Shown: one piece after another, positions 21,588 through 36,710 of the stretch | How positions within the stretch are numbered: position 1 is the first letter of the stretch | Layout: the number at the start of each line of letters is the position of its first letter | Source: Halorubrum lacusprofundi ATCC 49239 | GTDB taxonomy: Archaea; Halobacteriota; Halobacteria; Halobacteriales; Haloferacaceae | Direction: 5' to 3' | Assembly (NCBI RefSeq): GCF_000022205.1 | Contig: NC_012029.1 | Coordinates: 1,054,001-1,118,000, forward strand | Length of the DNA: 64,000 bases | Position numbers and translations under genes: made by a program | The notes under the pieces: model-generated | Told to the model about the DNA's origin: nothing | Database searches by the model: none | The model's input: the letters and a program-made list of their open reading frames with translations, nothing else

Positions 21588-22433
21588 CTACTGCGTTCCG
21601 GATCGGCTCTCGTGTCGCCAAAGGAGATCGAAGTACTGCCAGAGTCCGGCCACGAACGACGGGTTCTCCGTGACCGCTGCCTGGCGGTGGTGGTTCGGGA
21701 TCTCCTCCTGTTCGACCATCAGGAGGCCCTGCCCACTGTCGTACTCGAGACTCGGGTCGATGAAGGTTCCCCGCCACGGGAGCACCCGATCGCTGATACG
21801 CACGGACACGGACGGGAATTCTGCTCCAAGGAGACCTCGGATCTCGTCTTGGCGGCGCTTGTTCTTCTCCGAGAGGTGTTCGGGTGCGAGCAGCAGCGCA
21901 TCGACATCGACGCCGTGCTCGATGGCGTCCCGCATCGCCGGTCGCACGGCGTCGATGTATCCGAAACTCTTCGTGAGGACGTACACGGACTCCTCGGCCT
22001 CGCGAAAGAGACGACGCGTCTCGCGTTCGCTCGGTTCGCCGACGTCGACGACGTGGAACAGGTCTTCGGTCGGGCTGAGATCGTCGACGCCTCTGTCTCG
22101 AACTGGTGTGTACGCGTCCACGAACGACTCTTCGACTGCTTCGACGTCCTCGCGAAATCGCTCGTAGGCGTGCCGCCTGTTCGCGACGGCGCGCTCTGCG
22201 ATCTCGGACGGGTCGTGCGGCTGATACCGCTTCGGACGGCCCGGGATGATCTTCACGTATCCCCCCTCTGACAGCGAATCGAGCACCCCATAGATTCTGG
22301 CTTTCGGGATACCGGTCGCCTCGGCGAGATCGGGTGCAGTCGTCCGACCCAATAGTAGCAACTCCTCCAGTGCGGCGGCTTCGTACTCCGTGAGATCGAG
22401 CAGCGAAAGGAAATCGTCGCCGGAATCGGACAT
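21588..22433 (-). CDS. TrmB-family transcriptional regulator
   Basis: The 281-residue protein has an N-terminal winged helix, LTEYEAAALEELLLLGRTTA continuing to TGIPKARIYGVLDSLSEGGY (residues 14-60), typical of TrmB/Sugar-specific regulators. The C-terminal PLD-like/effector half contains REAEESVYVLTKSFG and HGVDVDALLLAPEHL. TrmB proteins sense sugars and control sugar metabolism. Two identical-arm palindromes (21508-21528, 22508-22528) flank the gene. It probably controls the SQD1-like operon downstream and itself or the divergent small gene. The effector is unknown. Confidence 0.88.
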   Translation of the reverse strand: MSDSGDDFLSLLDLTEYEAAALEELLLLGRTTAPDLAEATGIPKARIYGVLDSLSEGGYVKIIPGRPKRYQPHDPSEIAERAVANRRHAYERFREDVEAVEESFVDAYTPVRDRGVDDLSPTEDLFHVVDVGEPSERETRRLFREAEESVYVLTKSFGYIDAVRPAMRDAIEHGVDVDALLLAPEHLSEKNKRRQDEIRGLLGAEFPSVSVRISDRVLPWRGTFIDPSLEYDSGQGLLMVEQEEIPNHHRQAAVTENPSFVAGLWQYFDLLWRHESRSGTQ

Positions 22434-22507
22434 GCCCCTCCGTCGTCGTCGCCCCCGTAAGTACGTACTGGTGGTGCCGGAACAGTTATGTTGTGTCGTT
22501 CTATAGA

Positions 22508-22528
22508 GTTACTCAGAATATGAGTAAC
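22508..22528. promoter_or_regulatory. Second perfect palindromic operator GTTACTC-N7-GAGTAAC
   Basis: Arms 22508-22514 and 22522-22528 are identical to those at 21508-21528; only the 7-bp spacer differs. It overlaps the start codon of a small gene (22520) and lies 75 bp upstream of the divergent trmB start. A half copy with the same spacer (GTTACTCAGAATAT) recurs at 23231-23244, just before the first orc1/cdc6 start codon. Confidence 0.75.
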
Positions 22529-22675
22529 CAAGTGCCCTCCGACAAAGACGACGCTCATCTCACAGACGTTCCCGACGGGGCGGGCTGTACGGAGATCTGG
22601 GAACACCTCTCGGACGGACGTGACGAAGAACGTCCGGGAGACGACAACCCTCGTAAGGATACCGGCGGCGTCTAA
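22520..22675 (+). CDS. Small acidic protein, unknown function
   Basis: The 51-residue frame starts MSNQVPSDKDDAHLTDVPDG and contains GAGCTEIWEHLSDGRD. Acidic, haloarchaeal-like composition and the operator exactly over its start codon argue for a real gene. No known domain is recognised; the single Cys and WEHLS helix might be a binding surface. A start 9 codons upstream exists but would place the operator inside the gene. Confidence 0.5.
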   Translation: MSNQVPSDKDDAHLTDVPDGAGCTEIWEHLSDGRDEERPGDDNPRKDTGGV

Positions 22676-22984
22676 GACCGCGACTAAGGCTGTTGAGATC
22701 GCCGAAGTCATCGAGAAACCCGATGATCTGCGAGCAACCTCGCGACAATCGGACCCTACAGGCTTACGCTTGGGATCTTCCACGCGTCCCACCTCGTTCA
22801 GCCCTCTGATCGTCGTTCACCCCTCTGATCGCCGTTCACCCCTCTGATCGCGACGAGTGTGAACTCCCCGATGCGGCCGGCCCTCTCATCCAATCCGATC
22901 GCACCGAGGAACGACTGGACGAACTAGCGGGTGAGACCGACGAAGCCGTGGTCGACGATTGATTGGTTGATCGCTGAACCGAGA
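22676..22984. other. Non-coding or decayed stretch with 19-bp tandem repeats
   Basis: This stretch between the small gene and the ORB repeats has coding-like fragments without starts, such as KAVEIAEVIEKPDDLRA near 22690-22740 and ECELPDAAGPLIQSDRTEE near 22855-22915, suggesting the remains of a gene. Positions 22801-22856 hold nearly three copies of a 19-bp unit CCCCTCTGATCGCCGTTCA. No intact gene is seen. Confidence 0.5.
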
Positions 22985-23131
22985 CGCACCCCTCATTTCG
23001 TCTGTTGTCCGCGCTGGTAACCAACGGTCAAAGCACGTCGGGCTCACACCCCTCGTTTCGTCTGTTCTCTCAGCAGACCGATGGGGACGCCACGATGAGC
23101 TATCGGCCACACCCCTCGTTTCGTCTGTTCT
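22985..23131 (+). repeat. Three origin recognition boxes (class A) upstream of orc1/cdc6 copy 1
   Basis: Copies at 22987-23008, 23045-23068 and 23108-23131 share CACCCCTCRTTTCGTCTGTT, spaced 60 and 63 bp. TTTCGTCTGT is the core; the C-run (G-string on the other strand) precedes it. The same element occurs three times, inverted, just after the gene. This arrangement marks a haloarchaeal replication origin of the orc-adjacent type. Confidence 0.88.
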
Positions 23132-23249
23132 GTGCCACACATTCCGAGTACCGATCTCTGATCGGCCGCAGCGACAAAACAAGCGAAACAAAGTAAACAG
23201 ACGAACGCCACTTTTAAGTTAGTAAATAGTGTTACTCAGAATATCAACG

Positions 23250-24446
23250 ATGTCTGAAGATCTCTTTGCGGAGATGACTGAAACGCTCTTTGAGGACAAA
23301 TCTATTCTCTCGGAAGAGTACCGTCCGGACGTTATTGTCGAGCGGGATGACGAGATCGACGCGTATCGATCGGCGTTAAAAGACGTTCTCTTCGGCCGAA
23401 ATCCCGCAAACGTGTTTATTTACGGAAAAACGGGTGTTGGAAAGACGGCCGTTACAGAGCACATGATGAGTGCCCTCCAAACGGAAGTGGAACGGCGCGA
23501 CGCAGCCGAGGAACTCCATGTTCACTTCCGGAACTGCAACGACGACAGCGTCTACAGAACGGTTCGATCGCTGATAAATAGTATCCGCGGAGATGAGGGA
23601 GAAACGTTTCCGGAAACCGGCCTCTCGACGTCGCACGCTCTCGAAACCTTGTACGAGGAAATGGAGGAACTCGGTGGCACATTTCTGTTCATTCTCGACG
23701 AAATCGACCACCTGTCTGACCCTGATACACTACTGTACGAACTCCCGCGCGCACGAGCGAACGGGCATCTCGACGCTGCCCGAGTTGGTGTGATCGGGAT
23801 CAGCAACAACTACACGTTCCGCTCGTCGCTGAGCCCGAAAGTCAAAGACACGCTGATGGAGAAGGAACTGGCCTTTTCGCCGTACGACGCAGACGAACTT
23901 CAGTCGATCCTCACTGCCAGAGCCGAGAAGGCGCTCGTTGACGGTGCATCAGAAGACTCTGCGATCAGACTCGCAGCCGCGAAGGCCGCGAAAGACACCG
24001 GAAGCGCACGGCAGGCGATAGACCTCCTTCGCGAGGGCGGTGATGTCGCTGAAGAACAGGGAGCGACGGCGATCACCGACGACCACATCGAAGTGGCTGC
24101 CGCACGCGTTCAGCGAGGTCGCGTCCAAGACAAGTTGCGTGACCAGACCATGCACGGGCAACTCATCTTAGAGTCACTCGCACGGATCGAAGCGAGCGGA
24201 GACGTTCCTGCACGGTCGAAAGAGATTCAGGCGGTGTACGAACGCGTCGCACGAAACTGGGGTCACGATCCACTAACCACGCTAAAGAGCATCCAGAATC
24301 ACCTCGCGGATCTCACGATGCTCGGGTTTCTCGAACGGACCGAACAGAACGAAGGGCGTGCGGGCGGCGTTCACTACCGATACGAGCTCGCGTTGGACCC
24401 CGAAATCATCTTGGAGACGCGCGAATCGATCGAGAATCAGCCGTAG
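23250..24446 (+). CDS. Orc1/Cdc6 replication initiator, copy 1
   Basis: The start MSEDLFAEM follows a box A (TTTTAAGT, 23212-23219). The 398-residue AAA+ protein has Walker A FIYGKTGVGKTAVTEHMM near residue 60, Walker B LFILDEIDHLSDPDTLLYEL near 145, and sensor region GVIGISNNYTFRSSLSPKVK near 185. SARQAIDLLREGG lies near 255, and a C-terminal winged helix contains DPLTTLKSIQNHLADLTMLG near 345. It should bind the six flanking class A boxes and load MCM. It is paralogous to the copy at 31512. Confidence 0.95.
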   Translation: MSEDLFAEMTETLFEDKSILSEEYRPDVIVERDDEIDAYRSALKDVLFGRNPANVFIYGKTGVGKTAVTEHMMSALQTEVERRDAAEELHVHFRNCNDDSVYRTVRSLINSIRGDEGETFPETGLSTSHALETLYEEMEELGGTFLFILDEIDHLSDPDTLLYELPRARANGHLDAARVGVIGISNNYTFRSSLSPKVKDTLMEKELAFSPYDADELQSILTARAEKALVDGASEDSAIRLAAAKAAKDTGSARQAIDLLREGGDVAEEQGATAITDDHIEVAAARVQRGRVQDKLRDQTMHGQLILESLARIEASGDVPARSKEIQAVYERVARNWGHDPLTTLKSIQNHLADLTMLGFLERTEQNEGRAGGVHYRYELALDPEIILETRESIENQP

Positions 24447-24462
24447 TCAGTTTCCAAACGGA

Positions 24463-24602
24463 AGAACAGACGAAATGAGGGGTGTCGATGCCTCAGAGAG
24501 GACCCTCTAGCTGAATAAGAACAGACGAAATGAGGGGTGTGATTCAAGCGAGAAGGACCCACCACGGACTCCAGCGACGAGAACAGACGAAACGAGGGGT
24601 GT
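24463..24602 (-). repeat. Three inverted origin recognition boxes (class A) downstream of orc1/cdc6 copy 1
   Basis: Copies at 24463-24485, 24518-24540 and 24580-24602 read AACAGACGAAATGAGGGGTG or the AACGAGG variant, the reverse complement of the upstream boxes, spaced 55 and 62 bp. With the upstream set they frame the gene symmetrically. Confidence 0.88.
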
Positions 24603-24606
24603 CCGG

Positions 24607-24672
24607 ACTCCACGAGCCGACCGTCAAAACTCCACGAGCCGACCGTCAAAACTCCACGAGCCGACCGTCAAA
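24607..24672. repeat. 22-bp unit in three perfect tandem copies
   Basis: Units at 24607-24628, 24629-24650 and 24651-24672 are identical and each contains ACTCCACGAGCCGACCGTC. They sit between the last class A box and the 3' end of glmS. No dyad is evident. They may be a spacer expansion or an origin accessory element. Confidence 0.85.
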
Positions 24673-24724
24673 CGCTGTCGAGCTATCGCACTCTCGAGCC
24701 TGACCGAAACCCCGACAAACCGCG

Positions 24725-26572
24725 TTACTCCACCGTCACGCTCTTCGCCAGATTTCGCGGCTTGTCGATCGCTCGGCCCTTGTCGTTCGCCACGTGATAC
24801 GCGAACAGCTGGAGGTACACGTTCGCCACCAAGGGCTCGACGACGCCCACGTCGGGCACCTCGAACGACACGTCCAGCGTGTCGTACTCGTCGCCCGCAG
24901 ACACACACCCCAACGCAGGCGCGCCCCGCGTCTGCGCCTCGGTGACGTTGTTCATCGTCTCGTCGGCCCGCGCACCATCTGTCAACACCGCCAACACGGG
25001 CGTCTCGGGCGTCACCAGCGCCAACGGGCCGTGTTTGAGCTCGCCTGCCGCGAACCCCTCGGCGTGGTCGTAGGAGATCTCCTTGAGCTTCAACGCGCCC
25101 TCTAAGGCCACGGGCACCCCCAACGCGCGCCCGACGAAGAAGAACGCCTCGCCGTCGCCGTACTCGCGGGCCGCCTCCCGCACCTGCTCCTCTTCGTCGA
25201 GCACCTGTTGGACCGCGCCCGGGAGCCCGCGCAGGTCCTCCAACACCGATCGCGCGTCGGCGGCCCCGAGCGCGCCGCGGTCCCGCCCCACAGCCACCGC
25301 GAGCATGGCGAGCGTCGCCACCTGCGAGGCGAACGTCTTCGTCGCCGCCACGCCGATCTCCGGGCCGGCGCGGATGAACGCCGTCCCGTCGACTTCCCGC
25401 GTGACGGTGCTCCCCAAGGTGTTCGTCACCGCGAACGTCCGCGCGCCCGCGGCGTTCGCGCGTCGCACCGCCCCGAGCGTGTCGGCCGTCTCCCCGCTCT
25501 GAGTCACGGCGACCACCAGCGTCCGATCGGGCGTCCGCCCCGCACCGAACTCGTACTCGCTGGCGATCTCGACGGTCGCGCGCACCCCGGCGAGGTCCTC
25601 GAACAACCGCGCGGCGTACCGGCCCGCGTAGTAGGAGGTCCCGCAGGCGACGATCCGGATCTCCTCCAGATCCGCGAGAAAGCCCGGCGGGAAGGAGACG
25701 TCGAGATCGACGTCCCCAGCGTCCACGTCCAGCCGCCCGGCGAGCGTCTGACGCAGCGACTCGGGCTGTTCGTGGATCTCCTTGCGCATGTAGTGGTCGT
25801 ACCCCCCTTTCTCCGCGGCGTCGGCCTCCCACGTCACGGTCTCGACCTCGCGCTCGACCGGCTCCCCGCGAGCAACGATCTCGACGCCGTCGGGCGACAG
25901 CGCCGCCACGTCGCCGTCCTCCAAGTACGTCACGTCGCGGGTGTGCTCCAAGAACGCCGTCACGTCGCTGGCGACGAACGACGCGTTCTCGCCGCGGCCC
26001 AACACTAACGGGCTCCCGCGTCGGGCGACGATGATCCGGTCGTTGCCCTCGCGGACCGCGCAGATCGCGTAGCTCCCCTCCAGTCGGTCCTCGACGCGTC
26101 GGACCGCGGCCAGCAGATCGGCGTCGGGGTCGGCCGCGAGCTCCTCCTCGATCAGGTGCGGGATGACCTCCGTGTCCGTATCGCTCGTGAACTCGTGGTC
26201 GGACAGCTCCGCTTTGAGCGCCTCGTAGTTCTCGACGATCCCGTTGTGGACGACCGCCACGTCGCCCGCGCAGTCGGTGTGCGGGTGGGCGTTCGCGTCC
26301 GTCGGCGGCCCGTGCGTGCTCCACCGCGTGTGGCCGACGCCGTGGGTCGCGTCCGGCACGTCCGGGACGGTGAGCCCGTCGACCTCACCCGACCGCTTCG
26401 CCACCGTGAGTCCGCTCGACGCGCCCACGAGCGCGACGCCCGCCGAGTCGTACCCGCGGTACTCCAGGTTGCGGAGTCCCTCGTGGACGATCGCGCCCAC
26501 GCTGTCGACCGCGCCGCCGTCAGTCTGCCCGCCGCTGTCCAGCTCGCCGACGTAGCCGATGATCCCACACAT
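24725..26572 (-). CDS. glmS: Glutamine-fructose-6-phosphate aminotransferase
   Basis: The 615-residue enzyme makes glucosamine-6-phosphate from fructose-6-phosphate and glutamine. MCGIIGYVG puts the catalytic Cys at position 2 of the glutaminase domain; HTRWSTHGPP, HNGIVENYEALK and GSYAIC follow. Two SIS sugar-isomerase domains follow, with ACGTSYYAGRYAARL near residue 310 and TQSGETADTLGAVR near 355. The ending KPRNLAKSVTVE is the conserved GlmS C-terminal tail. It starts 3 bp after the stop of the glmU-like gene, so they are one operon. First step toward UDP-GlcNAc. Confidence 0.95.
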   Translation of the reverse strand: MCGIIGYVGELDSGGQTDGGAVDSVGAIVHEGLRNLEYRGYDSAGVALVGASSGLTVAKRSGEVDGLTVPDVPDATHGVGHTRWSTHGPPTDANAHPHTDCAGDVAVVHNGIVENYEALKAELSDHEFTSDTDTEVIPHLIEEELAADPDADLLAAVRRVEDRLEGSYAICAVREGNDRIIVARRGSPLVLGRGENASFVASDVTAFLEHTRDVTYLEDGDVAALSPDGVEIVARGEPVEREVETVTWEADAAEKGGYDHYMRKEIHEQPESLRQTLAGRLDVDAGDVDLDVSFPPGFLADLEEIRIVACGTSYYAGRYAARLFEDLAGVRATVEIASEYEFGAGRTPDRTLVVAVTQSGETADTLGAVRRANAAGARTFAVTNTLGSTVTREVDGTAFIRAGPEIGVAATKTFASQVATLAMLAVAVGRDRGALGAADARSVLEDLRGLPGAVQQVLDEEEQVREAAREYGDGEAFFFVGRALGVPVALEGALKLKEISYDHAEGFAAGELKHGPLALVTPETPVLAVLTDGARADETMNNVTEAQTRGAPALGCVSAGDEYDTLDVSFEVPDVGVVEPLVANVYLQLFAYHVANDKGRAIDKPRNLAKSVTVE

Positions 26573-26574
26573 GG

Positions 26575-27750
26575 TTACCCCCTCCGGACGACCGCGCCAG
26601 ATTCAACGCGCCCGTCGATCACGACGCCGGCGTCGGCCCGCACGTCGTCGCCGACGACCGCACCGTCCGTGAGCGTCGCGCCGCCGCCGACGGTCGTGTT
26701 GTCGCCGACCACGCCGCCGAGTGCCACGTCGTGGTGGACCGCATCGCCCACGACGACGGTCGCAGGACCCCCGGCGATCGTCGCGTTCGCCCCGATTCGG
26801 GCGTTCCCGGCGACGATCGCGTCGCGGACGACGGCTCCGGCACCGATCACGGCGTCGGGGAAGATCACCGCGTTCTCGACGACCGCTCCCGCCTCGATCG
26901 TCGCGTTGCTCCCGATCGCGGTGCTCCCGCCGACCGTGACGTTCGGTCCGATTCGGACGTTGCCCGCGAGCGCCACGTCGTCGGCGACGGTCACCGACGC
27001 GCCGAAGGCGGCGTCGGTAGGCTCCGTCTGTTCGGACTCACCGATCAGCGCGGCGTTGACACCCAGCAGGTCCCAAAGGTTCGATACGTCGAGCCAGCGG
27101 CCATCGTACCCGACCGCGGTCAGGTCGCCCGCCGACGCGAGCTCGTTGAGCGTCGCCGTGATCGCCAGTTCGCCCGTCGTGTGCGTCTCGCGGATCGCGT
27201 CGAACACGGCCGGCGAGAAGGCGTAGACGCCGGCGTTGATCCGGTTCGTCTCAACCGGCCCCTCGGGCTTCTCGTCGATCCCCGTCACCCGGTCACCATC
27301 GAGTGTTACCACGCCGTACTCGCGCGGGCGTTCCGCGGTCGTGACCGCCATCGCCGGGTGGTCGCCGTCGCGCGCGAGATCACGGACCCGCGAGACGACC
27401 GCGGCGTCGACGATCCGGTCGCCGTTGAGCACGACGAAGGGGCCGTCGACGACGGGCTCGGCCTGCAAGACGGCGTGACCGGTTCCCAGTTGGGTCGACT
27501 GCTCGACGTACTCGATCGTCACGCCCCAGTCGTCGCCGTCGCCGAAGTGGTTCCGGATGCGCTCCTGTCTGTACCCGACGACGAGGGCGATCCGATTGAT
27601 CCCGGCCGCGGCGACGGCCTCAACGACGTGTTCGAGCAGCGGACGGTTCGCCACGGGGACCATCGGCTTCGGCCGCCGGTTCGTCAGCGGTTCTAACCGC
27701 CGTCCCTCGCCCGCGGCGAGGACCACCGCAGTCACGGGAGTGTCGCTCAT
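26575..27750 (-). CDS. Sugar-1-phosphate nucleotidyltransferase with left-handed beta-helix domain (GlmU-like, copy 1)
   Basis: The 391-residue protein has the nucleotidyltransferase signature VVLAAGEGRRLEPLTNRRPK at residues 9-28, IEYVEQSTQLGTGHAVLQAE near 85, and VVLNGDRIV near 108. From about 255 it is a hexapeptide-repeat beta-helix (VRIGPNVTVGGSTAIGSNAT). It probably makes UDP-GlcNAc or a related UDP/dTDP-sugar. It lacks the NVANLRHD-type acetyltransferase segment of the other copy, so the two may divide the reactions or use different sugars. Confidence 0.88.
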   Translation of the reverse strand: MSDTPVTAVVLAAGEGRRLEPLTNRRPKPMVPVANRPLLEHVVEAVAAAGINRIALVVGYRQERIRNHFGDGDDWGVTIEYVEQSTQLGTGHAVLQAEPVVDGPFVVLNGDRIVDAAVVSRVRDLARDGDHPAMAVTTAERPREYGVVTLDGDRVTGIDEKPEGPVETNRINAGVYAFSPAVFDAIRETHTTGELAITATLNELASAGDLTAVGYDGRWLDVSNLWDLLGVNAALIGESEQTEPTDAAFGASVTVADDVALAGNVRIGPNVTVGGSTAIGSNATIEAGAVVENAVIFPDAVIGAGAVVRDAIVAGNARIGANATIAGGPATVVVGDAVHHDVALGGVVGDNTTVGGGATLTDGAVVGDDVRADAGVVIDGRVESGAVVRRG

Positions 27751-27867
27751 GACGCAACCGTCGCCCGCCCGCGGTTTAAATCGCTCGCGGTCGGCTGTCC
27801 GAGTGCACCGTGACCGCTGTCACAGACGGTGTATAGATTAATTGGGTTGTAGACGCAACTGGTTTGT

Positions 27868-28143
27868 ATGTCGACAGCGGTGAAAATGGACGAAGATGCG
27901 AAATCAAAACTCGAGGAGCTTCAGGCAGAGATCAAACTGAAGACGGGGAAGAAGGTCACACAACAAGAAATCCTCACGCAGCTGATCGAATCAGCTGTCG
28001 AGTCCCGGGCAGAATTCGTCGACTCGTTTCGCGATGGGAGCACGAGTCTGAGTGAGACGGAGGTTCAAGCGTTCAACGAGGGGATGATCGCGTCCGGCGT
28101 GGAGACGGACGAAGATGACATCGACGACATTCTGTACGGATGA
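27868..28143 (+). CDS. VapB-like antitoxin
   Basis: The 91-residue protein begins MSTAVKMDEDAKSKLEELQA, then TGKKVTQQEILTQLIESAVE, a ribbon-helix-helix-like DNA-binding pattern, followed by an acidic C-terminal tail suited to neutralise a toxin. Its stop overlaps the start of the PIN-domain gene (ATGA). Together they form a VapBC-type toxin-antitoxin pair. The pair runs opposite to the surrounding glm genes and sits between the two glmU-like copies, consistent with insertion. Confidence 0.78.
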   Translation: MSTAVKMDEDAKSKLEELQAEIKLKTGKKVTQQEILTQLIESAVESRAEFVDSFRDGSTSLSETEVQAFNEGMIASGVETDEDDIDDILYG

Positions 28144-28583
28144 GTGTTTTCGTCGACACCGGAGTGTTCTACGCGCATCACGATACGGATGCCAGTCGCC
28201 ACGAGGCCGGGGCAGCGGCGCTGAACGCCGTTCTCAGATCGGCTGAGTACGGTCACGTAATGACGAGCGACTACATCTACGACGAGTCGGTGACGCTGAC
28301 ACACAGGCGAACGAGGGACATCGACGCCGGGCTCGAGATCGGACGGCGAATTCGGGGAGAGGGGTATCCGTCGGCTATCGAACTCCTCCACTCGTCCGAG
28401 ACGCTCTTCGATCGTGCCGTGACGATACAGGAGACGTACGCCAAACATCAGCTGAGTTTCACCGACGCGATGACCGTCGCTCACGTCGAACACCACGATA
28501 TCGACTGTGTGTTGAGTTTCGACGACGATTTCGACGGTGTCGTTACGCGTCTTGTGCCCGAGACGCTCTTTTCGAGAGACTGA
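28140..28583 (+). CDS. VapC-like PIN-domain toxin ribonuclease
   Basis: The 147-residue protein starts MSVFVDTGVFYAHHDTDASR (first acidic residue of the PIN site), has SDYIYDESVTLTHRR near residue 42, HQLSFTDAMTVAHVEHHDID near 105, and VLSFDDDFDGV near 124. The four acidic positions of a PIN nuclease are present. VapC toxins cut tRNA or rRNA when not bound by VapB. Start overlaps the antitoxin stop by 4 bp. Confidence 0.82.
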   Translation: MSVFVDTGVFYAHHDTDASRHEAGAAALNAVLRSAEYGHVMTSDYIYDESVTLTHRRTRDIDAGLEIGRRIRGEGYPSAIELLHSSETLFDRAVTIQETYAKHQLSFTDAMTVAHVEHHDIDCVLSFDDDFDGVVTRLVPETLFSRD

Positions 28584-28607
28584 TCGTCGCGCTGACGATA
28601 CTCCGAA

Positions 28608-29816
28608 CTACTCCGACACTCGATCGCGAGTCAGAACCTCTCCGGGACCGGTCGTCTCCGCTGCACCCAGTTTGACGCCGGCGTTCAGCGACGTGTTGAT
28701 CCCCGTCTTCGCGCCGTCGCCGACGATCGCCCCGAGCTTCCGGCGGCCGGTGTCGACGCGGTCGCCTTTAACGGTCATCCGGACGTTCCCGTCGTCGTGT
28801 CGGAGGTTCGCGACGTTCGTCCCGGCGCCGAAGTTCACGCCGCGACCCAGCACGGAGTCACCGACGTACGAGAGGTGCCCGACCGACGCGTCGGCCATGA
28901 GTACCGAGTTCTTCACCTCGACGCCGTGTCCGACGTGCACGTCCGGACCGACCACCGTCGACCCGCGAACGTACGCGTTCGGCCCGACTTCCGCGCCCTC
29001 GCGAATCAGCGCCGGCCCCTCGACATACGCTCCAGACCGGACCAGCGCTCCTTCCTCAATGACGATCGGGCCGTGGAGGTGGACGCCTTCCTCGACGGTC
29101 CCAGCGTTCTCGACGGCATCCGTGAACTCGGTGAGCGCTAGTTCGTTGGCTTTCAGCAGCTCCCAGGGACGACCGACGTCGAGCCACGTCCCCTCGTAGG
29201 GCGCCACGTCGATAGGATGGCCGTCGTCGAGGAGGAGCTCGATCGTCGTCGTGATCTCGTACTCGCCGCGTTCGCTCTCGGGGGTTCTATCGATATACTC
29301 GAAGACCTCGGGCGGAAACGCGTAACAGCCGACGTTCGCGAGATTCGTCGGCGGGTCGTCGGGCTTCTCGACGATCCCGGCGAGCGAGCCGTCCTCAGTC
29401 GTCGAAAGCACACCGTATGCCCGAGGATCGACGACCTCCGTGGCCGCGACTGCCGTCCCGTCGGCGTCGGCAAGGGAGCGGGGGAGCGATGCATCCACGA
29501 CCACGTCGCCGTTGAGCACGAGGAAGTCCTCGTCGACGACGGGCTCGGCCTGCGCGACGGCGTGAGCGGTCCCCAACGCCTCCGCCTGCTCGACGTAGTG
29601 GACCGGATAGCCTCGATACGACTCGCCGATCGCGTCGCGGATCGCGTCGCCGCGGTATCCGACTACGACGACGAACTCGTCGACGACACCGGCCACGGTG
29701 TCGAACACCCGTTCGAGCAGCGACCGATCGCCGACCGGAAGAAGTGGCTTCGGACGACGGTCCGTTAGCGGTCGCATGCGGGTCCCGCGGCCGGCCGCGA
29801 GCACGACTCCGTACAT
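28608..29816 (-). CDS. Bifunctional sugar-1-phosphate nucleotidylyltransferase/acetyltransferase (GlmU-like, copy 2)
   Basis: Start MYGVVLAAGRGTRMRPLTDR was chosen because upstream residues are arginine-rich and not family-like; this gives 402 residues. The N-terminal half is a nucleotidyltransferase (VHYVEQAEALGTAHAVAQAE, FLVLNGDVVVD). The C-terminal beta-helix ends with GVNFGAGTNVANLRHDDGNV and TGINTSLNAGVKLG, the archaeal acetyltransferase region. It should convert glucosamine-1-phosphate to UDP-GlcNAc, the last steps after GlmS and GlmM. Its gene is 26 bp downstream of glmM. Confidence 0.88.
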   Translation of the reverse strand: MYGVVLAAGRGTRMRPLTDRRPKPLLPVGDRSLLERVFDTVAGVVDEFVVVVGYRGDAIRDAIGESYRGYPVHYVEQAEALGTAHAVAQAEPVVDEDFLVLNGDVVVDASLPRSLADADGTAVAATEVVDPRAYGVLSTTEDGSLAGIVEKPDDPPTNLANVGCYAFPPEVFEYIDRTPESERGEYEITTTIELLLDDGHPIDVAPYEGTWLDVGRPWELLKANELALTEFTDAVENAGTVEEGVHLHGPIVIEEGALVRSGAYVEGPALIREGAEVGPNAYVRGSTVVGPDVHVGHGVEVKNSVLMADASVGHLSYVGDSVLGRGVNFGAGTNVANLRHDDGNVRMTVKGDRVDTGRRKLGAIVGDGAKTGINTSLNAGVKLGAAETTGPGEVLTRDRVSE

Positions 29817-29842
29817 GTCCGAGGCCGACGGGGTGACGGGGT

Positions 29843-31171
29843 TTATCGGCTGCGGTCGGCGGCGGCGCGATCGATGAGGTCTCGCGCCGTTTCGAAGAGA
29901 TCGTCTGCATCGTCCGCGTTCCGCGCCTCGGCGGTGATCCGCACTAGCGGCTCGGTGCCGCTCGCGCGCACGAGGAACCAGCCCGCGTCCGTCTCCACGC
30001 GAATCCCGTCGAGCGTCGAGACGGTTTCGAACCGCTCGTGGGCGAGTTCGGCGACGTGTTCGACCACCGCCTCCTTCGCGTCCGTCCGCACCGAATCCCG
30101 CCGAATCGGGTACGCGGGAAGCCCGTCGACCATCGCCGACAGCGATCCCTCCGCGCCGACCAGCGCGGCCAGCGTGCAGGCGGCGAGGGGGCCGTCGGGA
30201 CAGCGCGTCTGCTCGGGCCAGATCCATGCGCCGCTCGGTTCGCCGCCGAACACGACGCCGGGGTTCGCGGTCTCAGCGGCGACGTACGCGTCGCCGACCG
30301 GGGTGTACGTCACGTCCGCACCGACCTCGGCGAGCGTGTCCGCGACGAGGAGGCTCGTGTCCACCGGGACCGCCACGCGATCGCCCGCGTCGGCTTCGCG
30401 TCGACCGAACAGCGCGAGCAGCGCGTCGCCGGAGACGAACTGGCCGCGCTCGTCGATCGCCATCATCCGATCGGCGTCGCCGTCGTGAACGATCCCGAGG
30501 TCCGCGTCGGTGGCCTCGACGACCACGCAGGCCGTCTGGCAGTTCTCGGCCGTGGGCTCGCTCGGCCGTCCCGGGAACCGCCCGTCTCGCTGGGCGTTGA
30601 GCGTCTCCACGTCACAGCCGGTCGCGTGGAGCGCGTCGGCGGTGACTCGTCCCACGCCGTTGCCGAGGTCGACGACAACCGAGAGGTCGTCCGGGATCGC
30701 GACGGACTCCCGGAGCGCTCGCTCGTGGCGCTCGCGTGCGCCGTCTACGTGGCGGTGCTCGCCGAGTTCGTCCCACGCGCCGAGGTTGAACGCCGCTTCC
30801 TCGACGATCTCGGCGATTCTGTCGTTTTCGTCTTCGTCGAATGCCCGCCCGTCGGCCGCCCAGAGCTTGATCCCGTTGTCGGGCGCGGGGTTGTGTGAGG
30901 CGGTGACGACGACGCCGGCGTCGGCCCCTTCCCGGACGACGCTCCGCGCGACGGTCGGTGTCGGCTGGACGCCCACGTCGATCACGTCGCCGCCGCACTC
31001 GGTGACGCCGGCCGAGAGGGCGCGACTCAGCGTGCGTCCGCTCTCGCGAGCGTCCCGTCCGAGGACGACGGTGTCGGCGCCGTCGGTCACCAATGCACGT
31101 CCAATGTCGAGCGCGAGGTCGGCCGTGATCGTCTCTCCAACGCGACCTCGGACACCGCTCGTTCCGAACAT
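29843..31171 (-). CDS. glmM: Phosphoglucosamine mutase
   Basis: The 442-residue protein begins MFGTSGVRGRVGETITADLA, carries the phosphoserine loop VVVTASHNPAPDNGIKLWAA near residue 90, the metal loop VHDGDADRMMAIDERG near 222, a sugar-binding GGEPSGAWIWPE near 305, and VRASGTEPLVRITAEA near 405. It isomerises glucosamine-6-phosphate to glucosamine-1-phosphate (or other hexose phosphates). It lies in the same direction as the glmU-like and glmS genes, supporting UDP-GlcNAc production. The next feature upstream is the second origin. Confidence 0.92.
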   Translation of the reverse strand: MFGTSGVRGRVGETITADLALDIGRALVTDGADTVVLGRDARESGRTLSRALSAGVTECGGDVIDVGVQPTPTVARSVVREGADAGVVVTASHNPAPDNGIKLWAADGRAFDEDENDRIAEIVEEAAFNLGAWDELGEHRHVDGARERHERALRESVAIPDDLSVVVDLGNGVGRVTADALHATGCDVETLNAQRDGRFPGRPSEPTAENCQTACVVVEATDADLGIVHDGDADRMMAIDERGQFVSGDALLALFGRREADAGDRVAVPVDTSLLVADTLAEVGADVTYTPVGDAYVAAETANPGVVFGGEPSGAWIWPEQTRCPDGPLAACTLAALVGAEGSLSAMVDGLPAYPIRRDSVRTDAKEAVVEHVAELAHERFETVSTLDGIRVETDAGWFLVRASGTEPLVRITAEARNADDADDLFETARDLIDRAAADRSR

Positions 31172-31282
31172 ACCTCGGCTTCAGCGGCGGGAGAAAAGAC
31201 ATTTCGGGTGGTGAACGAGAATCTCGCAAGCACCGCGGGCAGAACCGTGAGTGATAGAAGCGCCCAGTGGATCGACGTGAGG

Positions 31283-31396
31283 GAGAGTACGTTTCGTCTG
31301 TCTGTGGTAGTAGCGGTTGGACGGAACTGATGAAGTAAGACTGTCCTCCGATGGCACACCGCCTGCCGTCTCGGAGAGAGTACGTTTCGTCTGTCT
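31283..31396 (+). repeat. Two origin recognition boxes (class B) upstream of orc1/cdc6 copy 2
   Basis: Copies at 31283-31303 and 31376-31396 read GAGAGTACGTTTCGTCTGTC, 93 bp apart. They share the TTTCGTCTGT core with the class A boxes but replace the preceding CACCCCTC with GAGAGTAC. A weaker partial core is seen at 31449-31460. Confidence 0.85.
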
Positions 31397-31511
31397 TCTC
31401 GAAATTCCCGCGGATGGGACGGAGATCCAGTTGTTTTCGAGCCTCCGAATAGACAGACGAGACAAACAAAAGCAGGTTTTAAGTACTTATGTCGGTTCAT
31501 CGCACGTACGC

Positions 31512-32711
31512 ATGGCCGGGCCATTCAGTGATATCGAGCGTTCGATTTTTGTCTCGAAGGAAGTTCTCTCCGAAGATCATCAGCCTGATCAGATTCTCGA
31601 ACGCGACGAGGAGATCGATCAATACCGCCACGCGCTTCAAGATGTTCTCTTCGGTCGCACCCCACAGAACGTCATGCTGTACGGGAAGGCCGGGCTCGGC
31701 AAAACCGCTGTCACGACGTATATGATGGAGGCGCTTCAAGACGAGGTCACGAAGCGACCGGACGCCGACGACGTACACGTACACGAATTGAACTGTAACG
31801 GAAAGTCTCTCTACACTGTCGTTCGCACTCTGGTCAACGGACTGTTACCCGAGCATGCAAGCGAGTTCCCGAAACGTGGTCTTGGAACGGCTGACGCCTT
31901 CGAGGAACTCTACACTCAACTTGACCGAATCGGCGGAACTCACCTCGTCGTCTTCGACGAGATTGATCACTTGGACGATGTCGACACCCTCCTGTATGAA
32001 CTCCCGCGAGCGCGATCGATCGGTCACATCACGAACTCGAAGGTCGGAGTCATCGGAATCAGTAACAACTACACGTTTCGGCAGTCGCTCTCGCCGAAGG
32101 TGAAAGACACGCTGATGGAGACAGAGATATCGTTCAGCCCGTACGATGCGAGCGAGCTCCGTACAATTCTCGCGGACCGTGCCGATCGGGCGTTCGTAGA
32201 AGGTACCTGTGACGACTCGGCCATCGCGAGGGCGGCGGCGATCGCGGCCAAGGATCGCGGAAACGCGCGCCAAGCGATAGATCTCCTCCGTGTCGGCGGC
32301 GAAGTCGCCACACGGGGTGACGACGAACGGGTCGACGACTCACACATCGTCAAAGCCCAAGAACTCGTGCAGCGGGGACGATTGCGGAACCGCATTCGAG
32401 ATCAGACACAGCACGCACAGCTCCTGCTCGAAACCGCGGCGTACATCGAACAACAAGGGGAGTCACCGGCACGGTCGAGAACGATCAAGGACCGATACGA
32501 GGCGGTCGCCGAATCACACGCTGTGGATCCACTTACGACCCTTAAGAGCATCCAGAACCATCTCTCTGACCTCCACATGCTCGGGTTTCTGCAGCGGAGA
32601 GACCGAAATCACGGCGAAGGCGGCGGTCGGTACTACGAGTACCAACTCGACCTCGATCCGCAGATCGTCGTCGAAATCCGACAGGAGGCCGAAGCCAAAC
32701 CCTCCCCATAA
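31512..32711 (+). CDS. Orc1/Cdc6 replication initiator, copy 2
   Basis: Start MAGPFSDIERS follows a box A TTTTAAGT at 31477-31484, the same box as copy 1. The 399-residue AAA+ protein has Walker A MLYGKAGLGKTAVTTYMM, Walker B VVFDEIDHLDDVDTLLYELP, sensor GVIGISNNYTFRQSLSPKVK and a C-terminal winged helix with DPLTTLKSIQNHLSDLHMLG. It is clearly paralogous to copy 1 but differs in the N-terminus and the ATPase lid. It likely binds the class B boxes beside it. Confidence 0.95.
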   Translation: MAGPFSDIERSIFVSKEVLSEDHQPDQILERDEEIDQYRHALQDVLFGRTPQNVMLYGKAGLGKTAVTTYMMEALQDEVTKRPDADDVHVHELNCNGKSLYTVVRTLVNGLLPEHASEFPKRGLGTADAFEELYTQLDRIGGTHLVVFDEIDHLDDVDTLLYELPRARSIGHITNSKVGVIGISNNYTFRQSLSPKVKDTLMETEISFSPYDASELRTILADRADRAFVEGTCDDSAIARAAAIAAKDRGNARQAIDLLRVGGEVATRGDDERVDDSHIVKAQELVQRGRLRNRIRDQTQHAQLLLETAAYIEQQGESPARSRTIKDRYEAVAESHAVDPLTTLKSIQNHLSDLHMLGFLQRRDRNHGEGGGRYYEYQLDLDPQIVVEIRQEAEAKPSP

Positions 32712-32721
32712 GACGCCACAA

Positions 32722-32955
32722 AGACAGACGAAATGTACTCTCTCACTCCTCGATGACACACGGTGCAGAAAGGAGCGGGACACACCACTGTTGCGAGTGA
32801 AGCGCGGTCACGCGACACCCCGATCGATTCGATCTGTCGGATTCGATGATATCGCTCATCGATCTGATCTCACGAATGGTTTCGATATCGGGTGACGGAG
32901 CCCCCTGACGGAGCGCCCGGTCGATTGACGCGGGAGAGTACGTTTCGTCTGTCTG
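32722..32955. repeat. Two class B origin boxes downstream of orc1/cdc6 copy 2, in opposite orientations
   Basis: An inverted copy (AGACAGACGAAATGTACTCT) lies at 32722-32742, 11 bp after the gene, and a direct copy (GAGAGTACGTTTCGTCTGTC) at 32935-32955. Between them no gene is seen. Together with the upstream pair they surround the initiator gene. Confidence 0.82.
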
Positions 32956-33040
32956 CCGAACGCACGCACCGTCGGGACGGATATTCAGTCGTTCGTCCAG
33001 CAGCGACAGGAACGGGGGTCACAGAGATACGAGGAGGAAG

Positions 33041-33125
33041 CCCACGGCTTTAGCCGTGGGAGGAATCCGACAATTCATTCCACAGACCACGAGCGGTGAC
33101 ATCCTCCCCGTCGTAAACGACGGGG
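33041..33125. repeat. Two facing IS1341-type end hairpins
   Basis: Hairpin 1 (33041-33060) has stem CCCACGGC/GCCGTGGG and loop TTTA, preceded by GGAAG and followed by AGGA. Hairpin 2 (33106-33125) has stem CCCCGTCG/CGACGGGG with loop TAAA and is the same design read on the reverse strand, with GACATCCTC before it. The intact tnpB downstream ends with a hairpin of the same type. They are solo ends of IS200/IS605-like elements. Confidence 0.7.
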
Positions 33126-33688
33126 CTTCCCCCGCACGAGGAATCCCGGCCTGTCGCCGAGTAGGTTTCAGGACCCTCTCCCGAGGTCGGTGGGACGGGT
33201 TTCGTCCCTCGCTCGGGAGCGTCCTGTGGCGCTGTCACGGGCGCTCCCATCCGCAAGCGAGTCATCGACGCCCGGTTTCTCAGGGGGGCTCTCTCCCAAG
33301 CGGTCATGCCTCACGGCACGGTCGGTTCGGTCACACTTCCCCGACCCGTAGGCCGGGTTCCCGTGCTGACGAACGACGCGAACCCCGCAGTCGGTTGCAG
33401 AACCGACCCGTGGGAACCGACGCCCCGAAATATTCGGGACGCTGGTTTCAGCGCGTCTCGTACTCCCGCGCAAGTGCCGAGAGTCGACGTAACCCTTGCT
33501 AACGTGTACGAAACGGCGTGTACTAAGCGTTTGGGTTTCGATAAGCAATCGTCGGCGGTTGCTCAGTACCATGTCGGATTCACGCCCGTCGTGAACGGCG
33601 GGATTCTCTCCTTGCATCAAGATAGCCATCCGACTCCCCTACGCCAGCCACAGTATTTATAAAAATTAATACTATATGTGAAACACAG
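33126..33688. other. Probable decayed IS1341-type element and tnpB promoter region
   Basis: About 560 bp with no intact gene. Several overlapping frames are open for up to 150 codons but show no family motif, and no HxH...Y (TnpA) transposase is present. Given the reverse-strand end hairpin at its left border it is probably the remains of an element oriented on the reverse strand. At 33652-33673 an inverted repeat AGTATT...AATACT with TTTATA forms the likely tnpB promoter or left end. Confidence 0.45.
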
Positions 33689-34993
33689 ATGGAGGGCGTA
33701 ATTCGCACCGCTAAAGTTAAACTTGACGTACCCAGCGAGCGGTGCGACGATCTCCATCAGACGAAAAATCAGTTCCTCCACTGTGCGAACATCACTTCAG
33801 AGTGGGCGTGGAAACACCCGAACGACTACTGCGTAACCTCCAAACAGAAAGCCGAGAACGCTCTCTACGACCAACTTCGTAACGAGACGGAGTTGACCGC
33901 GAATCTCGTTCAGAAAGGGATCCGGCGTGCTATTGAGGCCACAAAAAGTGGTGTTGCCCGTCTCAAAAAACAGGAGAGAACGAGTCAACCGCACTTCGAC
34001 GCGTGGAGCGTCGTCTACGACAAGCGAAGTGCGACGTTCCACCGTGACCACGTTTCGCTCTCAACTGTGAACGGTCGCGTTGAGTGTGACTACGTGATTC
34101 CCGACGATCCCGAGGAAACACCGATCGGTGAGTACCTGTTGAACGAGGACTACGAGTTCCGTATGTCCACGTTGCAGTACGACCGCTCCACAGAGTCGTT
34201 CTATCTCCACGCAAAAATGCGCCGAACCGAACGTGACGAGAAAGAGCAGTCTACGACTACTTTTGATGACGCCAAGCACAGAACAGTCCTTGGCGTTGAC
34301 CTGAACGTGGACGGCTCGCTCGCCGTGACTTCGACAGGCGTGTTCATCGGGAATGCCGACGAAATGAATCATCGACGCCGAGAGTTCGAGAAGACCCGCG
34401 GGTCGATGCACCAGACGGGCACGCGGTCGGCACACCTGTCGATTCAGTCGATGAACGACCGCGAACACCGGTGGATGCAGGACGAGCTGCACCGAGCCTC
34501 GAACCGGATTCTGGAAGAAGCCCACGAACACGACTGCACGCATATCGCGTTCGAGAATCTGACGGACATTCGCAAGCGGATGGCGGGTGCGAAGCGATTC
34601 CATGCGTGGGCGTTTCGACGCCTGTACCAGTACGTCGAATACAAAGCTGAGATGATCGGGATCGAGGTCGAGCAGGTGAGTCCGGCGTACACGTCTCAAC
34701 GGTGTTCGTCATGTGGGTTTACGCACGAAACTAATCGACAGTCGAAGCACCAGTTTGTCTGTCAGAAGTGCGAGTACGAACTGAACGCCGACTATAACGC
34801 GAGCAAGAATATCGGTCACAAACTTCTCAAACGCCTCCGCTCGGGGCAGAAGTCTTCGAGCGGAGGCGCACCCTGTCAGTGTGCGCTGAAGTCAGGGACA
34901 TTGAACCTGAATGGTGATTTCTACGCCTCCGTCGAGTCGACGGCAGAAGGGGAGTCTACTGACAAGCCCACGACTTCAGTCGTGGGTAACTGA
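33689..34993 (+). CDS. tnpB: TnpB, RNA-guided endonuclease of an IS1341-type (IS200/IS605) element
   Basis: The 434-residue protein has all RuvC parts: VLGVDLNVDGSLAVTSTG near residue 210 (first Asp), HIAFENLTDIRKRM near 288 (Glu), and ELNADYNASKNIGHKL near 368 (last Asp). A zinc finger, RCSSCGFTHE with CQKCEYE, lies between the last two. It therefore looks catalytically intact. TnpB cuts DNA guided by an RNA from the element right end, favouring element retention. No tnpA accompanies it, as is usual for IS1341 types. Its coding end overlaps a hairpin at the element border. Confidence 0.94.
   Translation: MEGVIRTAKVKLDVPSERCDDLHQTKNQFLHCANITSEWAWKHPNDYCVTSKQKAENALYDQLRNETELTANLVQKGIRRAIEATKSGVARLKKQERTSQPHFDAWSVVYDKRSATFHRDHVSLSTVNGRVECDYVIPDDPEETPIGEYLLNEDYEFRMSTLQYDRSTESFYLHAKMRRTERDEKEQSTTTFDDAKHRTVLGVDLNVDGSLAVTSTGVFIGNADEMNHRRREFEKTRGSMHQTGTRSAHLSIQSMNDREHRWMQDELHRASNRILEEAHEHDCTHIAFENLTDIRKRMAGAKRFHAWAFRRLYQYVEYKAEMIGIEVEQVSPAYTSQRCSSCGFTHETNRQSKHQFVCQKCEYELNADYNASKNIGHKLLKRLRSGQKSSSGGAPCQCALKSGTLNLNGDFYASVESTAEGESTDKPTTSVVGN
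34832..34993 (+). ncRNA. Predicted omega RNA (reRNA/sotRNA) at the 3' end of tnpB
   Basis: Inside the last 160 bp of tnpB is a perfect 12-bp stem, CGCCTCCGCTCG (34832-34843) with its complement at 34857-34868. An adjoining GCGCAC/GTGCGC stem spans 34866-34886, and the border hairpin CCCACGAC-TTCA-GTCGTGGG lies at 34967-34986. Guide RNAs of TnpB come from exactly this location, and haloarchaeal IS1341 elements make sense overlapping transcripts there. The guide would be the flank starting near 34994. Transcript ends are not visible in sequence. Confidence 0.6.
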
Positions 34994-35933
34994 CTCGTCG
35001 ATCCGCGGAAGAACCGTCGTTTCAAGAACGCGCGTGAGATCTATCTCCGGCGATCGGCTCGGCGGACGATCCAGACGTGACAGAGAACCAGCGGCGACAG
35101 TCGTCGGCGATCGTGTGCCTGTCTATGGGGAGTCCGTTTCATATTTAGTAAATAGAATGTGTTAGCTATACCAAAATAAATTTGATAATTCGTGATCTCA
35201 TGTTAACCTCAACACTCTCACGACGTGACCTCGACCGTCGACGAGCTTCACGCAGGAGCCGGGTTTTCCAAGAGAGTGCACCTTCGGAACGTTCGTCGAT
35301 ATCGACAACGAACCCGCTGGCGACGATCACAGGTACCCTCGCTAGGTCAAGAAGTATTTAGACGAATATGCAATTATACTCCATTTATAAATGTATATAT
35401 ACATTTAAATAGCAAGTTATTGGTATCAGCTCGATGAAAACGGACGGTACGTGCTGGTTATCTCTCGTTCGAATCGCCGTTTGATCGACTGCAACGCGAT
35501 CCGATCCTCGTCGCGGACCGATCGTCGCTGACCAATCGTCGCGGACCGACCGTCGCTGACCGATCGTCGCTCGATCTCTTGAACGCGATGATGAACAGCA
35601 GAGTGTCTCTGATCGACACCAGAATTACCAGATATAGAAGATATATTTAAATATGATATGATCGTGAGATAGCGACGAACATCGTCTCCCACGACTGTCG
35701 GCGACGACCCGAATCACCGAAACGGATCGGTGGCGGTTGCTCATTAGCATTACAGTCGTACTGATGTAATTAGTGTCTTAGAACTGTACACCACCCCGAC
35801 GCGGAAGATGGAGAGAGTGACCGTGAGAAGACGCCGTGCGAAACGATGAGGACAGAGGCGCTCGGCGGTGCCCACGCGATCGAGAATGAACGCTCGTTCG
35901 GCAGCGCAAAACGCTACGAAACGCCACGAAACG
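34994..35933. other. AT-rich gene-free region with 14-bp tandem repeats
   Basis: No gene with family support or convincing codon use is seen in about 940 bp. The stretch 35140-35440 and 35620-35780 is far more AT-rich than the genome around it. At 35516-35571 there are four tandem copies of a 14-bp unit, GACCGATCGTCGCT with small changes. It may be an integration scar or a regulatory/structural region. Confidence 0.6.
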
Positions 35934-36710
35934 CTACGAGTACGTCGCGCGAATCCCGATGATCCGGGCGGACTGCGCGACCATCTCGGGGACCTCCTCA
36001 TGGTACCACGTTCCGTTCATCCGGGTGGTCGGCCCCGAGACGCTGATCGCGCCGAGGACGTGCCCGTCATCCGCCGACAGGATAGGCGCGCCGACCGCTC
36101 GCATCCCGACGGTTCGCTCCTCGTCGTTGAACGCGTACCCTCGCTCGGCGATCTCGTCGAGTTCGGTCCGCAGCGCCTCGGCGTCCGTAAGCGTCTGGGG
36201 CGTCTGATCGTCGAACGCCACGCGGTCAAGCAGCGCGTCGAGTCGGTCGTCGGAAAGGTGCGCGAGGTACGCCTTGCCGACCGAGGTCGCGTGGAGGTCG
36301 ACGACGGTTCCGATGTGCGAGTCGGTTCGCACCGCCTGATCCGCCAGCGACTGGTAGACGTAGATCCCGACGCCTCCTTCCTCGACCATCACCTGCGCAC
36401 GCTCGCCGACCGCCTCGACCAGGCTGTCCGTCTCGGGCTTGACAACGTGATACAGGTCGTGACGCTGGCGCGCGCGATCTCCCAGTCCGAGGAACTGCAG
36501 CCCGAGTCGGTACTCGTCGCCGTCCTGAACGACGTACCCCAGCTCCCGGAGCGTCTGGAGGTGGTTGTGGACCGTGCTCTTCGAGATCGACAGCGACTCC
36601 GCCAGCTCCGAGACGCCGCACCCCTCCCGCTCACCGAGCTGTTCGATGATACGGAACGATCGTTCTGTCGCTCCGACCGATGCCGTGTTCGGTGTGTCGT
36701 CGCGTGCCAT
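35934..36710 (-). CDS. IclR-family transcriptional regulator
   Basis: The 258-residue protein has the winged helix EREGCGVSELAESLSISKST and VHNHLQTLRELGYVVQDG (residues 27-62) and an IclR effector domain with GERAQVMVEEGGVGIYVYQS, DLHATSVGKAYLAHL and GYAFNDEERTVGMRAVGAPI. IclR regulators control catabolic operons by binding a small-molecule effector. It lies 71 bp downstream of two PrpD-family genes and closes the reverse-strand arm of the catabolic cluster, so it is the best candidate regulator for that cluster. Confidence 0.92.
   Translation of the reverse strand: MARDDTPNTASVGATERSFRIIEQLGEREGCGVSELAESLSISKSTVHNHLQTLRELGYVVQDGDEYRLGLQFLGLGDRARQRHDLYHVVKPETDSLVEAVGERAQVMVEEGGVGIYVYQSLADQAVRTDSHIGTVVDLHATSVGKAYLAHLSDDRLDALLDRVAFDDQTPQTLTDAEALRTELDEIAERGYAFNDEERTVGMRAVGAPILSADDGHVLGAISVSGPTTRMNGTWYHEEVPEMVAQSARIIGIRATYS

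Follow-up and report, generated by a model that had tools for sequence, protein, structure and literature searches.

How two initiators that share a cell keep to their own origins is the question raised by the genes orcA and orcB of Halorubrum lacusprofundi ATCC 49239, which lie in a stretch of 64,000 nucleotides (the window) and are each flanked by a separate class of repeated boxes. In the haloarchaea, families of origins and the linkage between Orc family and box have been described (PMC3528665), and three origins of one species are reported each to need their own cdc6 (PMC3936714), and the comparison of OrcA with OrcB bears on the residues behind this pairing of one Cdc6 with one origin. 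The two proteins are 57% identical, both score above the Pfam / NCBIfam cut-off for the AAA+ domain, the Cdc6 lid and the C-terminal winged helix, and the recognition-helix stretch TLKSIQNHL is identical in the two.

Two classes of box beside two orc genes

Six class A boxes (consensus CACCCCTCrTTTCGTCTGTT) flank orcA, and four class B boxes (consensus GAGAGTACrTTTCGTCTGTCT) flank orcB; the class B consensus has four matches at ≤3 mismatches and none in 100 shuffles. A first-pass annotation of positions 31283-32955, an interval that also contains the orcB gene, had proposed that class A carries the G-string CACCCC before the core and that class B carries GAGAGTAC instead, and this is borne out by the six class A and four class B boxes, the outer side being CACCCCTC in the former and GAGAGTAC in the latter. 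Its description of the winged-helix core as unchanged is accurate for 12 bp but not beyond them: the core is followed by T in 6/6 class A boxes (TC in five, TG in one) and by CT in 4/4 class B boxes, so that the far end reads TGTTC or TGTTG in class A and TGTCT in class B. The exact 12-bp core, CRTTTCGTCTGT, has 10 copies in the whole 3,692,576-bp genome (a contig of 2,735,295 bp, which contains the window, and two others of 525,943 and 431,338 bp), and 10/10 are these class A and class B boxes; therefore the difference between the two systems must lie outside the 12 bp. At ≤1 mismatch the core is present 44 times in the genome, as compared with 8 for the reversed control pattern. Because the boxes differ at both ends, exchange of the outer 8 bp alone, the experiment suggested earlier, would test half of the difference.

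Table 1. Positions in the window of the orc genes, their boxes and associated features
Feature	Positions	Strand	Remarks
Class A box 1, CACCCC-core-TT	22987-23006	+	
Class A box 2	23047-23068	+	
Class A box 3	23110-23131	+	
Degenerate mini-site adjoining orcA start	23195-23206	-	far end TGTTT
orcA, Orc1/Cdc6 initiator	23250-24446	+	398 aa
Codon of OrcA Thr123	23616-23618	+	ISM loop
Codon of OrcA Arg370	24357-24359	+	wing tip
Class A box 4	24463-24484	-	
Class A box 5	24518-24539	-	
Class A box 6	24580-24601	-	
Class B box 1, GAGAGTAC-core-CT	31283-31303	+	exact match
Class B box 2	31376-31396	+	exact match
Degenerate mini-sites adjoining orcB start	31451-31471	-	far end TGTCT
AT-rich stretch, candidate unwinding element	31460-31499	no strand	35% GC
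orcB, Orc1/Cdc6 initiator	31512-32711	+	399 aa; TIGR02928, Cdc6 winged-helix and lid domains
Codon of OrcB Arg122	31875-31877	+	ISM loop, before Gly-Leu
Codon of OrcB Glu369	32616-32618	+	wing tip
Class B box 3, inverted, downstream of orcB	32722-32742	-	one mismatch
Class B box 4	32934-32954	+	exact match

The repeated boxes, some of them inverted, beside an orc gene are the arrangement of an orc1/cdc6-adjacent haloarchaeal origin. A mini-ORB is a core without a conserved outer element. Class B likewise has no G-string but, unlike mini-ORBs, retains a conserved outer element of its own, set at a constant distance from the core, and it falls outside that definition. The G-string-ORB origins of haloarchaea, as far as they are described for the origin families (PMC3528665) and for H. 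hispanica oriC1 (PMC3936714), have a similar layout, an orc1/cdc6 gene flanked by repeated boxes, some of them inverted, with an AT-rich stretch (here a candidate unwinding element); class A shares their G-string at the box end, whereas class B has GAGAGTA in its place. In the surveys, as these accounts present them, only G-string boxes were taken. Of 154 orc genes, 102 have boxes chosen in this way, as do 3 of the 5 on the H. lacusprofundi chromosome, and the sentence of PMC3528665 on orc genes with boxes on both sides lists Hlac_1078 and not Hlac_1085. Hlac_1086 has been named TnpB-like (PMC10544981) and is probably the TnpB-like ORF beside orcB, in which case orcB would be Hlac_1085 and orcA Hlac_1078. 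Judged by its sequence, class B appears to work like an ORB, yet it lacks the G-string by which PMC3528665, in the account it gives, recognizes one, and a G-string is no general hallmark of the boxes of haloarchaea.

The TnpB-like ORF (33689-34993), together with similar 23-nt hairpin-like repeats at 33038-33060 and 34964-34986, comes right behind the last class B box. Upstream of the class A boxes are three tandem 19-nt repeats, TCGTTCACCCCTCTGATCG (22794-22850), which contain a CACCCCTC-like element without the core, and directly behind the last class A box are three perfect tandem 22-nt repeats (24607-24672). No Rfam match was found within 22000-36000, a promoter/terminator scan gave nothing above chance, and a comparison with viral contigs found no relative.

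The outer element and the residue before the ISM Gly-Leu

The comparative sample was assembled in two rounds. In the first, 171 loci were read and 91 kept (distinct protein, ≥300 aa, ≥52% identity to OrcA or OrcB); the second comprised 35 loci, of which 12 were duplicates, 3 were too short or too remote and 20 were kept, giving 111 in total. At least two similar boxes are present in 91/91 kept loci of the first round, but the box scan imposes most of the core (≤1 mismatch) and conservation within the core is therefore not evidence. Outer elements with two or more C among the three G-string positions formed one class and all remaining ones the other, the latter taking in CACAGTA, GAGAGGA, GAGGGTA and one GAGGGGT. 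The C-run is present in 21/91 first-round loci; GAGAGTA is exact in 60 of the 90 non-G-string loci, with close variants in most others.

It had been suggested that the AAA+ insertions of the two proteins be compared, and the initiator-specific motif (ISM) of the AAA+ domain does differ, Thr123 of OrcA being replaced by Arg122 in OrcB. OrcA residue 123, directly before the conserved ISM Gly-Leu, ranks second of 319 columns at separating the outer classes: across the 111 loci Thr accompanies the C-run (CCCC) in 21/21 and Arg or Lys accompanies elements lacking it in 90/90. A second Orc family, ∼44% identical, has Arg at this site and GAGAGTA-type boxes (L090, L091 and L102; in L090 and L102 the best GAGAGTA copies fall inside the called gene), and L089, which joins these three on the tree, has Thr and C-rich boxes. 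With ten loci of other families added (121 in total), the counts become 28/28 and 93/93, with two tree changes, both shared by residue and box. It should be noted that these ten were labelled by eye from 24 distinct loci, that an eleventh, L195, is a duplicate, and that the other 14 were left out because their boxes were unclear or their proteins remote. Thr-Gly-Leu is also the sequence of the A. pernix and S. solfataricus Orc1-1 chains. According to PMC9738581, the ISM contacts the G-tract in the complex from A. pernix, whereas in the heterodimer from S. solfataricus it does not. The association at the outer end, which is one of sequences, supports an involvement of the AAA+ domain through the ISM.

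However, it should be recognized that this end has changed rarely. Sign tests on independent pairs cannot reach 0.05 with one change in the OrcA/OrcB family and two when the others are included, and other columns, such as 129, separate the outer classes about as well as 123. Enrichment of the ISM among the class-separating columns (10 of the top 30) was not used as evidence because ISM divergence is high at other deep splits too, which reach 14. A requirement of Thr before Gly-Leu for every G-string was also discarded, as it is broken by remote families with Gln, His or Ser and G-rich boxes; among the 14 loci left out, G-rich boxes go without Thr in L011, L095, L096 and L004 and are accompanied by Thr in L006, L007, L012 and L092. 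Since G-strings prevail in the other Orc families, the GAGAGTA type is probably the younger one, with two origins on the tree, and an older G-string has probably given way to it in at least two lineages, with a rooting that is uncertain because the deep forks of these quick trees are open.

The far end and the wing-tip residue

The far end has changed much more often. On the tree of the 91 first-round loci the outer class (C-run or not) changes once and the six-base far end 21 times; with all 111 loci the outer class again changes once and the three far-end bases 18 times. For box positions 19-20, OrcA residue 370 at the wing tip ranks first of 317 protein columns (normalised MI 0.83, the next being 0.51). 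A rule in which Arg or Gln goes with TTC, Leu with CTT, Glu with TCT and Lys with TTA fits 101/111 loci (Arg-TTC 44, Leu-CTT 29, Glu-TCT 16, Gln-TTC 8 and Lys-TTA 4), the remainder being Glu-TCC, Leu-CTC, Arg-CTA and Arg-TTT (2 each) and Val-TCC and Arg-TTn (1 each). At box position 18, 9/9 tree changes coincide with a change of residue 370, as compared with a mean of 2.4 and a maximum of 6 shared changes for 114 other columns with 10-24 changes; over box positions 18-20 the figure is 12/18, as compared with a mean of 3.9 and a maximum of 9 for 115 other columns. No single clear protein column was found for box position 15 (C/G).

As far as it concerns Arg, Leu, Glu and Lys, the rule was fixed before the second-round loci were fetched, and it fits 12/15 of the new loci with these residues, the misses being L185, L187 and L190; five new Gln loci, outside the written rule, all have TTC. 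Of the 20 new proteins, many nearly duplicate training ones and few are informative, but those few include two switches that were predicted and are absent from the nearest training relatives: L173/L174 (Glu), whose nearest training relative is at 70.6%, and L194/L196 (Lys), at ∼65%. Well supported independent Arg/Leu pairs number only 3, all in agreement. The end-residue rules were rejected as general for all Orc families, as L012, L006, L007 and L092 do not follow them.

In the OrcB model (mean pLDDT 88.9), whose best fold matches are 2qby and 2v1u, Arg122 falls in the loop that joins helices 100-111 and 126-140, and Glu369 is flanked by strands 360-366 and 373-379. The A. pernix Orc1-ORB (2v1u) and S. 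solfataricus Orc1-1/Orc1-3 (2qby) complexes have the same fold, with the ISM Gly-Leu and the DNA-near wing residue at the same aligned places, whereas in OrcB the ISM Thr is replaced by Arg and the second wing Arg by Glu; at the site of the recognition-helix Arg pair, both OrcA and OrcB carry Lys-Ser. In the alignment OrcA residue 370 corresponds to A. pernix Orc1 R369. PMC9738581 names the A. pernix Arg pairs R345/R346 and R367/R369 (both are numbered 12 lower in the A. pernix chain), puts wing R369 close to the DNA and, for the paralogue Orc1-2, takes the wing pair as the one engaged in specific binding. The wing presumably faces the far end of the box. Structures are described as showing few base contacts (PMC6742236).

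A core-like site on the minus strand lies ∼-20 to -130 upstream of the orc gene in 104/111 loci (≤1 mismatch, a count with no chance comparison). The first far-end letter of these mini-sites is C in 15/18 Glu/Val loci as against 4/86 others, and only 31/104 match the main boxes over the whole far end. That they lack the outer element was a view dropped when a crude test scored 45/104 as outer-like. Such sites near the orc gene starts are candidates for autoregulation or unwinding.

Proposed reading of the boxes at one end or both

Within single boxes the outer type and the far-end type are mostly matched, which is what reading of both ends by one protein would produce. Among boxes with the exact core, 18 orcA-type loci have 87 with C-run and T, 6 with AGT and C and 0 mixed; at 16 orcB-type loci, AGT with C accounts for 48, a C-rich outer part with T for 6 and hybrids for 4, and 1 is of another kind. 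The four hybrids combine a C-rich outer part (CACACCT or similar) with C, the class B far end, i.e. they keep the far end of the local protein. Three of these are at like positions in three genomes, 90-130 bp behind orcB (L017, L018 and L021), and the fourth is at -315 in L014. Whole boxes of the other class occur in four orcA-type loci (L044, L045, L116 and L117) and three orcB-type loci (L014, L015 and L075), a hint of cross-talk; in the L014 genome no OrcA-type match was found besides OrcB at E 1e-115.

Most likely, both ends of the box set the specificity. In the reading to which we give a probability of roughly two-thirds, two Orc1/Cdc6 origins lie next to each other and the two classes are their respective origin recognition boxes; each Orc reads its own boxes at both ends and would bind only those beside it. 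The same recognition helix would hold the shared core in both proteins, the ISM loop (OrcA Thr123, OrcB Arg122) would read the outer element, CCCC or GAGAGTA, and the wing tip (OrcA Arg370, OrcB Glu369) would read the far-end bases, TTC or TCT; in the OrcA/OrcB family the far end would then be the fast-changing and the outer end the slow part of the pairing.

The first-pass annotation had held that the contact on the AAA+ side mainly sets the specificity of the paralogues, so that the difference at the far end would be minor. The involvement of this contact is upheld by the separation of the outer classes with residue 123, without exception in 111 loci, and by the switch in the second family; further, the outer element is the larger difference (CACCCCT as against GAGAGTA), and the G-string is reported to be essential in H. 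hispanica oriC1 (PMC3936714). The word "mainly" is not supported, as the far end differs too and follows the wing residue through many more changes, the hybrid boxes retain the local far end, and both domains contribute in Sulfolobus according to PMC4010727, citing Dueber 2011; dominance of the outer end is an unlikely, though the least unlikely, alternative to recognition at both ends.

That the differences reflect descent only, both proteins binding both boxes and being held by the core, seems improbable. The invariant core, the identical recognition helix, the restriction of each box type to a clade and the seven loci with other-class boxes all agree with it, but the repeated joint changes of far end and wing residue at box position 18, beyond those of other columns, and the prediction of two distant held-out switches do not. 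Still less credible is a reading of GAGAGTA by another protein, such as a nucleoid protein, in place of the ISM: an essential Sulfolobus origin motif is indeed described as bound by the nucleoid-associated protein UBP (PMC12141716), but here, in two families, a switch of the outer element goes with one of a residue in the cognate Orc, and its distance from the core is constant.

Recognition at both ends amounts to a strong, testable correlation between residues and bases and to a mechanism proposed from it. We lean modestly toward its extension to haloarchaeal Orc1/Cdc6 proteins of the OrcA/OrcB kind in general, in which a two-residue, two-ended code would predict the box from the protein, paralogues would separate their origins by changes in these residues with the recognition helix retained, and origins lacking a G-string would be common and missed by G-string-based surveys. 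Such a code might account for the coexistence of several origins in one cell, each keeping to its own initiator. A residue-to-box rule was not found in titles and abstract openings of the open-access literature, which is weak evidence of novelty. OrcA, OrcB and their relatives single out a pair of residues and a pair of box ends, each of which can be swapped on its own. A further combination is seen in L203, on plasmid pHME132 of Haloferax mediterranei, a genetically tractable species, where an Orc with ISM Lys and wing Gln has its own boxes and lies beside an integrase gene.
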